Positions 39,216 to 41,537 of a stretch of 49,464 nt of DNA are shown piece after piece. The stretch is taken from NCBI GenBank assembly GCA_947474395.1, contig CANJID010000028.1, positions 1-49,464 on the forward strand, in the 5' to 3' direction. The DNA comes from Caulobacterales bacterium. Its GTDB lineage: Bacteria; Pseudomonadota; Alphaproteobacteria; Caulobacterales; Caulobacteraceae. The notes under the pieces were generated by a model. That model did no database searches. It worked only from the letters and a program-made list of their open reading frames with translations, and was not told the DNA's origin. How positions within the stretch are numbered: position 1 is the stretch's first letter; each line of letters starts with the position of its first letter. The position numbers and the translations under genes were made by a program.

Positions 39216-41537
39216 CTAGCTCCGGTGTCGCTCCACCGTCTCGATCGACGGCAGGGCGCGCAAGGCGGCGGCGAGGTGGGTGAGGTGGCGCAGGTCCACC
39301 ACGTCGAGGTCGAAGTCGACGTCGAAATACTTCGACTGGCGGTGATGCATGCGCAGGCCGACGATATTGGCCCCCGCCTCCCCGATCACCGTGCAGATCT
39401 GCCCCAGCACGCCGGGCGCATCGTGGGCGGTGGCGGAAAGCCGCGCGCGGGAGATGGTGTTGGCCTCGGCCTCGGCGGTCCAGTGCAGGTCGCGCCACAC
39501 CGCCTCGTCGTCCTCGTATTCGGCCAGGCGCGAGCAGTCGATGGTGTGCACCGCGAGCGCCTGGCCCTCCTGGACGATGCCGACGATCCGGTCCCCCGGC
39601 AGGGGCCGGCAGCAGTCTGAGAAGTGCAGCGACACCCCCGTGGTCAGGCCGCTGCCCCGCACATAGAGGCGCGCCGCCTTGCCGTCCTCGATCCGCGTCC
39701 GCTCGGTCGCCGCCGCCCGCTCGGATTCCTTCAGGCCGGGGAACACCGCCTCCAGGATCTGCGCCGGGGCGATCCGCCCGCGACCCGCGGCCACGAAGAG
39801 CTCGTCCTCGCTAGTCATGCCGAACCGGTCCAGGGCCGGCCGCAGCGACACGTCCGCCATGGGCCGCCCCGCCCGCGCGAAGCCCTGCTCCACCGCCGCC
39901 TTGCCCTGGCGCTCGAACTCGTCCCGCTCGGTCTGGCGGATGTGGCGCCGGATCGCCGAGCGGGCTCTCCCAGTCACGGTCAAAGAACGCCAATCAGGCG
40001 GCACCAGCGGCTTGGGCCCCGAGATCACCTGCACCACGTCCCCGTTCTGCAGGGGCGTGCGCAGCGGCTTCAGTTCGCCGTTGATCTTCACCCCGATCGC
40101 GGTGTCGCCCACGTCGGTGTGGACCGCATAGGCGAAGTCGAGCGGCATGGCCCCCCGCGGCAGGCTGATCAGGTCGCCCTTGGGCGTGAACACGAAGGTC
40201 TGGTCGAGGAACATCTCCAGCTTGGCGTGCTCGACCAGCTCCTCGATGTCCCCCCCGTGCTCCAGCACCTCGACCAGGTGCCGCAGGTTCATCAGGGGGT
40301 CCCGCCCGCCGTCCGCTTCCGCGGCTTCCGCGTCGAAGCCGTAGGAGCGGTCCTTGTAGCGCCAGTGCGCCGCCACCCCTTCTTCGGCCACGCGGTCCAT
40401 GGTCTCGGTGCGAATCTGCATCTCGATCCGCATCCCTCGCGGCCCCACGATGGTAGTGTGCAGGGAGCGGTAGTTGTTGCGCTTGGGCGTGGAGATGAAG
40501 TCCTTGAACCGCTCCGGCACGCAGGGCCAGGTCCGGTGCACGACGCCTAAGGCCCGGTAGCAGTCGTCCTCGGAATCGACCAGCACCCGGAAGGCGTAGA
40601 TGTCCGACAGCTGCGAGAAGCCCACCGACTTCCTCTGCAGCTTCCGCCAGATCGAATAGGGCTGCTTCTCCCGGCCGAACACCCGCGCGGCCACCCCGGC
40701 GCCCTCCAGCCGCGAGGAGATTTCCCCCGAGACCACCGCGACGGCTTTCCCCTGCGCCGCGCGCAGCTGCTCCAACCGCCGGATGATGGCGTCCCGCGCC
40801 GTCGGGTTCAGGTGCTCGAAGGAGAGCTCCTCCAGCTCCGAACAGATCCGGTGCATGCCGATGGAGCGGGCCAGGGGCGCATAGATGTCCAGGGTCTCGT
40901 GGGCGATGCGCTCGCGCTTGGCCGGGCTCTGGATGAAATGTAGCGTGCGCATGTTGTGCAGCCGGTCGGCCAGCTTCACCAACAGCACCCGCACGTCCCG
41001 CGAGATGGCCAGGATGAACTTGCGCAGGTTCTCCGCCTGGCGGACGTGCTCGCTCGTCCGCTCCAGACGCGACAGCTTGGTCACCCCCTCGACCAGCTCG
41101 GCCACCTCCTCGCCGAACAGGCCGGCGATGTCGGCGCGGGTGGCCTGGGTGTCCTCGATCACGTCGTGCAGCAGGGCCGTGACGATGGCCGCCGAATCCA
41201 GCCGGTACTCGGTCAGTATTCCGGCCACCTCGATCGGGTGGGCGAAATAGGGATCGCCGGAGGCGCGCAGCTGCGCCCCGTGCATGCGCATCGCATAGAC
41301 ATAGGCGCGGTTCAGCACGCCCTCGTCGGCGGTCGGGTCATAGGATTTGACCCGGTCGATCAGCTCATACTGGCGAAGGTATTTCTGGCGCGTGCGCCTA
41401 GAAGCGGAATTGGGCGCGGCTTCACGGATGCCGCCCGCGGCTGCGGAGGCCTTGCGCTCAGAGGGGGAAGGGACGGCCGGGACGCTGCTGTCCGAAACCG
41501 TCTCGATTGACGTCGCGTCTGACCCCTCGGGGGTCAG
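39216..41537 (-). CDS. Bifunctional (p)ppGpp synthetase/hydrolase (Rel/SpoT)
   Basis: 773 residues if started at CTG 41535-41537. The HD hydrolase ([21 protein letters not shown]), synthetase ([30 protein letters not shown]), TGS ([20 protein letters not shown]) and C-terminal ACT domains are all complete, so the enzyme should make and destroy the alarmone. The conserved family N-terminus [15 protein letters not shown] lies upstream of the first ordinary start (GTG 41316-41318). No ATG, GTG or TTG occurs in frame before it. The CTG overlaps the rpoZ stop (CTGA) and has a perfect AGGAGG seven bases upstream. The first 50 residues after it are Ser/Ala-rich and disordered-looking. The pairing with rpoZ is conserved. 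Confidence 0.93.

Follow-up and report, generated by a model that had tools for sequence, protein, structure and literature searches.

Evidence for a CTG start of rel overlapping the rpoZ stop codon, and for a start-codon hairpin, in core Caulobacteraceae

The rpoZ-rel locus

The window, by which we mean the whole stretch of 49,464 nucleotides that was analysed, carries rpoZ and rel next to each other on the minus strand. The gene for the RNA polymerase omega subunit, rpoZ (41534..41893), was identified by PF01192 with an E-value of 1.7e-16 and by TIGR00690 with 65.3 bits, the cut-off being 23.6. It is followed by rel (39216..41537), which has 773 codons, counted from the CTG described below, plus a stop codon. 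The product is a long RSH protein, as HD hydrolase, RelA_SpoT synthetase, TGS, AH/RIS and ACT domains were found in the right order using Pfam and TIGR00691 (648.8 bits, cut-off 499.2). A structure search with Rel gave 31 matching chains with RelA 8fr8 as the best, and did not inform on the N-terminal extension. ppGpp, the chief signal of starvation, is set by Rel/SpoT, which in Caulobacter also influences the cell cycle.

The omega subunit ends in ...QEDRY, encoded by ...CGC TAC TGA with the stop codon at 41536-41534 on the minus strand. Here a CTG (41537-41535), the candidate start of rel, overlaps the TGA in the tetranucleotide CTGA (41534..41537, minus strand), and rel sits in the -1 frame relative to rpoZ. 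The Shine-Dalgarno-like run AGGAGG (41545..41550, minus strand) lies within the last rpoZ codons and ends 7 nt before the CTG. The junction is thus an NTGA overlap, where the start and the upstream stop codon share four bases and a Shine-Dalgarno-like run lies upstream. The next in-frame stop codon upstream of the CTG is a TGA at 41561, the rel frame opening 25 nt before the end of rpoZ. Neither an SSU model nor the tail pattern detected a 16S rRNA in the source assembly (G000), and the anti-Shine-Dalgarno sequence is therefore assumed.

Among rel codons 2-73, a total of 72 codons, there is not a single ATG, GTG or TTG; the near-cognate codons in this part are ATC (codons 11, 37 and 60) and CTG (codon 59). 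The first ordinary start is GTG at codon 74 (41316..41318, minus strand), which is an unlikely start because it is located behind the conserved LRQYEL segment. Codons 1-54 (41376..41537, minus strand) form a variable N-terminal extension of Rel. Its translation in the window genome requires a non-ordinary start, for example the CTG. A preliminary description of the window had pointed to the CTGA with AGGAGG seven bases upstream (41550-41545), to the 72 codons devoid of ordinary starts and to GTG 41318-41316 as the first one after a conserved N-terminal segment, and all of this was confirmed when the window was read codon by codon.

The same description mentioned comparable overlaps of neighbouring genes, and both are present: TTGA at 37254-37257 between what we take, from the product sequences, to be pdxJ and acpS, and GTGA at 38027-38030 between presumed pyrE and pdxJ. 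NTGA overlaps with weak starts therefore recur in the window.

Data sets and tree

The family search covered 199 genomes, in 197 of which rel was found; one match (G316, C1:1048579-1050792) carries one in-frame TAG. We collected 181 junction loci: 2 from the source genome, 29 from the family search, the best 80 of a longer list on named contigs, and 70 others, namely 30 from low-scoring genera and 40 stretches hand-picked across genera. Following removal of 1 locus without the rel anchor, 10 without an rpoZ match and 21 duplicates, a set of 149 distinct junctions (rows) was obtained. This set consists of 109 core rows (108 in frame together with L020), 21 Asticcacaulis rows and 19 outgroup rows. 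The label Asticcacaulis was taken from three named rows (L083-L085) inside a tree clade of 21 rows.

The core was first defined by the in-frame CTGA itself, which is circular. A rel tree of 119 rows, built by a quick method and having SH-aLRT support only, frees 79 rows from this circularity, as the CTGA rows form one clade of 79 (core Caulobacteraceae) with a support of 96; membership of another 30 short rows still depends on the trait. Therefore, the unbiased counts are those on the 79 tree rows. Mapping the CTGA label onto the tree requires two changes, which we read as a single gain and a break in L020.

Additionally, an order search of 150 genomes was used. Among these, 119 belong to other families and 118 of the 119 have rel. 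Forty stretches were taken from this search, 39 of them containing rpoZ; some repeat rows that are already among the 19 of the outgroup.

The start codon of rel

In the tree clade CTGA is present in 79 of 79 rows, it is in frame and open in 78, and AGGAGG is found in 69. Between the junction and the conserved domain, 30 of the 79 rows have no ordinary start at all, and the clade shows 29 different spacer lengths which are all equal modulo 3. The 108 in-frame core rows show 32 distinct spacer lengths (86 to 224 nt); of the two alternative frames, one lacks stop codons in only 57 rows and the other in only 39. AGGAGG is found in 95 of the 109 core rows. In 41 of the 109, as in the window genome, no ordinary in-frame start preserves the conserved N-terminus (68 have one before the domain), and 36 of the 109 lack one even 20 codons into the domain. 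Three Caulobacter rows, L039, L051 and L054, are among the 41 without an ordinary start anywhere before the domain.

A start further upstream was assessed on the 25 core rows where a stop codon ends the upstream frame no more than 31 nt from the end of rpoZ. In these rows the interval from that stop codon to the CTG holds no NTG codon (ACG occurs twice, ATA once). The CTG is the only NTG start candidate common to all core rows.

Mismatches in the extension, counted on disjoint close pairs, are distributed as 57/47/102 over codon positions 1/2/3 (chi-square p about 4e-6), and this excess at the third position indicates that the extension is coding and little constrained. The stop codon of rpoZ is TGA in all core rows; the stop codon of rel itself is TGA in 36 of the 74 core rows with a complete rel. 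The Glu codon within the Shine-Dalgarno-like run is GAG in 105/109 core rows compared to 1/21 in Asticcacaulis, while GAG makes up 801 of 1339 elsewhere in core rpoZ. Directly before LRQYEL the codon is ATG in 29 and GTG in 7 of 108 core rows, and since an ordinary start thus often adjoins this segment, a second, internal Rel start is possible in part of the family.

One core row departs from this pattern. In L020 (genome G011, a single contig) the CTGA, the AGGAGG and the beginning of the N-terminal motif are intact; a frameshift follows further on in the Rel extension, in a GC-rich run, and there is an ATG at +75. The frameshift represents either a sequencing error or a young mutation or change of start.

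The Asticcacaulis and outgroup rows served as controls. AGGAGG was found in 0/21 and 0/19 of these junctions, none of the 40 has an in-frame CTGA, and an ordinary rel start is present in every one (21/21 and 19/19). The same is true for 39/39 order-search junctions, many of them having this start 3-6 nt behind the rpoZ stop. In Asticcacaulis rpoZ ends with TAA (15 rows), TAG (5) or TGA (1), and the Glu codon at the would-be Shine-Dalgarno site is GAA in 20/21. Chance occurrences of CTGA in L124 and L108 are both out of frame. The order-search junctions contain six more, five of which are out of frame or closed; the sixth, that of L189, is open and in the rel frame, but an ATG stands at +5. Lacking the whole set of traits, Asticcacaulis is a ready-made natural control.

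The Tyr codon before the rpoZ stop is TAC in 108/109 core rows (TTC in the other one) and in 21/21 Asticcacaulis rows. The rel genes of Asticcacaulis prefer TAT (207 TAT, 139 TAC, in a group also holding L020), yet the last rpoZ codon is TAC; it makes no start there, and its presence is not explained by a CTG start. We make no claim that the weak CTG has been selected over TTG, i.e. TAC over TAT, as TAC is fixed in Asticcacaulis too.

Taken from sequence comparison, rel very probably starts at the CTG overlapping the rpoZ stop, and for Caulobacter and near relatives the matter seems close to settled. The preliminary description had proposed this start and suggested looking at related genomes for CTG versus ATG/GTG, and the counts given above speak strongly in its favour.

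Should Rel truly begin at the CTG, the gene models used in the family, along with constructs and residue numbering, probably lack part of the N-terminus. Gene callers restricted to ATG, GTG and TTG must in that case miss the start of rel, and for 41 of the 109 junctions they would have no fallback before the conserved domain.

The predicted start-codon hairpin

When the window junction was folded in a 120-nt context, an 8-bp RNA hairpin was predicted, CUGACCCC-CGA-GGGGUCAG (41519..41537, minus strand). Its 5' arm begins with the CUG start codon, the pairing partner of which is a CAG located 16 nt further downstream. The commonest form in relatives is CUG-A-GCC-loop-GGC-N-CAG. No Rfam match was obtained up to E 1 in window positions 41000-42200. 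A search of the source genome for the composite element gave two extra matches beside rpoZ-rel, and a reversed control pattern gave one; the two extra matches are taken as chance because their CTG lies inside a long open frame.

Codon 6 of rel is GCA in 46, ACA in 12, TCA in 11 and CCA in 11 of the 109 core rows (others 29). NCA is thus present in 80/109, which is 80 of the 84 rows having A, T, S or P at this residue, although NCA accounts for 1.8-2.9% of these codon families in the same rel genes. On the tree the residue changes at least 19 times among 57 rows keeping NCA, and at least 8 gains or losses of NCA fall within the core clade.

Pairing was compared with synonymous shuffles. Of 67 distinct rows, 43 have the whole CUG paired, compared to a mean of 12 and a maximum of 20 in 100 shuffles. 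At five control sites elsewhere in rel the observed counts resemble the shuffled ones (17/17.7, 27/21.0, 3/9.8, 16/9.4 and 1/0.9). The stability of the hairpin in the 67 rows is not unusual (mean z -0.14 relative to synonymous shuffles); the 120 nt of the window itself have z -2.55 compared to dinucleotide shuffles.

When RNAalifold was run on the full junction alignment it predicted no hairpin at the CUG, perhaps because the pairing registers are mixed, and counting of pairs in a fixed structure was used in its place. In 78 rows the named pairs are standard in 80.6%, as opposed to 27-48% in slid versions. Covariation is 0.226 versus 0.113 in shuffles, and the number of cells with both sides changed is 28 versus 11.5; for these three measures 0 of 500 shuffles were as high. 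Double changes occur in 3 pairs, which is no excess, as 413 of 500 shuffles reach that number. The structure slid by +1 has 41 double-changed cells compared to 28 for the named pairs, in agreement with a second pairing register seen e.g. in L006-L008 and L073.

CAG at positions 17-19 is found in 76/103 distinct core rows (27/103 are without it), in 0/20 Asticcacaulis and 0/19 outgroup rows. In local folds of distinct rows CUG is fully paired in 74/103, 0/20 and 1/19, respectively. In 13 of the 109 core rows, including the Brevundimonas rows L077 and L093, no base of the CUG is paired locally. In a longer context the AGGAGG is itself predicted to be partly paired with upstream rpoZ sequence.

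The excess over shuffles and the restriction of the CAG to the clade, together with an ordinary stability, indicate that selection acts on the pairing of the start codon. The hairpin is thus very likely under selection at the RNA level in most of the clade, although it is not universal.

Proposed mechanism and alternatives

Four things are read from sequence: the frame is open, ordinary starts are missing, CTGA and AGGAGG are conserved in one clade, and selection acts at the RNA level on CUG:CAG pairing in most of it. They suggest that Rel may be made mainly by ribosomes that have just completed rpoZ. The footprint of a ribosome should be large enough for the 5' arm to be covered when UGA is in the A site, and the stem would therefore have to be open at that moment. 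A ribosome terminating on rpoZ would thus already have melted the hairpin that pairs CUG with CAG. The AGGAGG at the rpoZ end would then hold the 30S subunit, and restart would take place at the CUG, decoded by initiator tRNA. A free 30S subunit, by contrast, would meet a weak CUG that is base-paired. With the start codon masked in this way fresh initiation should be weak and restart dominant, so that Rel synthesis would follow omega synthesis; the purpose would presumably be a low Rel level coupled to omega.

We lean towards this explanation as a whole, from the CTG start through the opening of the hairpin by the terminating ribosome and restart to an omega-coupled Rel, and likewise consider a hairpin-gated coupling of rel to rpoZ somewhat probable. 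A more specific version, to which we give slightly less than even chances, is that a start-codon lock arose in one ancestor of the core Caulobacteraceae, is opened only by a ribosome finishing rpoZ and keeps Rel proportional to omega. Most of the clade may have retained the lock, using more than one pairing register, and it may serve as a control point, e.g. for restart efficiency during starvation. A weak, mostly paired start codon kept over a clade offers a testable natural case of how restart could fix the ratio between the products of two adjacent genes. The preliminary description had likewise proposed coupling to rpoZ, and the support for this part is only indirect: the genes overlap, the AGGAGG is specific to the clade, and the CUG is paired in the conserved hairpin. 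It had also suggested that a CTG start would hold Rel at a low level, possibly in connection with omega being part of a ppGpp site. The description overlooked the hairpin, and the sharing of the trait over the clade could not be known from it.

A rather unlikely alternative leaves the CTG start as it is and takes the hairpin as a damper that lowers restart, or as a binding site of a regulator, instead of a lock opened by the ribosome. Excerpts of PMC7518266 report for a synthetic operon in E. coli that structures just behind the stop codon lower restart. The strength of the hairpin looks tuned as well, since a pair between positions 4 and 16 forms in only 9 of the 67 distinct rows. Against a damper, the selected property is the pairing of the start codon and not overall stability, and the same excerpts report this class of structure to be depleted at overlaps.

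Returning to the CTG start itself, it is improbable that Rel starts at an ordinary codon downstream, the stretch after the CTG being a leader. The numbering of C. crescentus SpoT residues as D81 and Y323, seen in excerpts of PMC4848567, fits such a start. With numbering from the CTG, the equivalent residues of L044 (C. vibrioides DSM 9893, a different strain) are 116 and 358, a shift of 35 in each case, and its codon 36 is TTG; the annotation in use therefore appears to start at this TTG. Some ordinary start before the domain is furthermore available in 68 of 109 core rows. Such a codon is nevertheless missing in the other 41, including the three Caulobacter rows named above, and the positions of the ordinary starts are scattered among the core rows. 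A leader would also not account for a frame kept in 78/79 tree-clade rows with mismatches in excess at the third position.

A fusion of RpoZ and Rel through -1 frameshifting at the rpoZ end, with the hairpin as stimulator, is very improbable. The frame of rel is the -1 frame of rpoZ, and a hairpin and a Shine-Dalgarno-like run are indeed at the site, but no slippery heptamer was seen at the rpoZ end, the base before TAC differs among relatives, and the hairpin begins inside the stop codon with a spacer of zero. Readthrough of UGA would leave the product in the rpoZ frame. An apparent RpoZ-Rel fusion in L048 was rejected, as the upstream frame is an unrelated open frame, perhaps from a mis-joined contig. 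Finally, it is hardly credible that CTGA and the N-terminal motif are mere by-products of codon bias and a conserved RpoZ C-terminus: QEERY is conserved and TAC fixed even in Asticcacaulis, but the rpoZ stop is TGA in 79/79 tree-clade rows versus 1/21 Asticcacaulis rows, the Glu codon of the Shine-Dalgarno-like run differs by clade, and a rare codon class is found at codon 6 where usual codon use is predicted.

Comparison with known systems

NTGA overlaps of stop and start codons with coupling of termination and reinitiation are of a general bacterial kind. The rpoZ-rel junction shares with them the 4-base overlap, the Shine-Dalgarno-like run in the upstream gene and the -1 frame; it differs in having C as N and, in most rows, a start codon whose bases pair within a conserved hairpin. 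In E. coli, rpoZ and spoT stand in the same order and spoT has a weak start too, a TTG located 18 nt behind rpoZ, but there is no overlap and the codon is not CTG.

In C. crescentus spoT is CC_1553, according to excerpts of PMC12186491, and the CTGA junction is also present in the related C. vibrioides DSM 9893 (L044). Given a start at the CTG, the numbering in the excerpts of PMC4848567 would omit 35 codons. Ribosome profiling and LC-MS gave CTG as 0.7% of the starts among 3235 mapped CDSs of C. crescentus, as reported in the main text of PMC4117421. These genes resemble rel in having a CTG start in the same family; unlike rel, they come in that text with no mention of a clade-wide conserved CTG or a hairpin. 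The only match to 'spot' in that text is the word 'spotted', and the rel start may already be listed in Dataset S1 of the same paper. A search of titles and abstracts found no CTG start or hairpin described at rpoZ-spoT.

The closest parallel for the hairpin is the class of ribosome termination structures treated in the excerpts of PMC7518266, i.e. structures behind stop codons which lower restart and are depleted at overlaps. The likeness is an mRNA structure at or behind a stop codon that could tune restart. The rpoZ-rel hairpin differs from this class, as described there, in being conserved at an overlap, in having the start codon in its stem and in not being unusually stable. CTG starts and NTGA overlaps are already known, and CTGA with a start codon paired in a hairpin is a new form of them.
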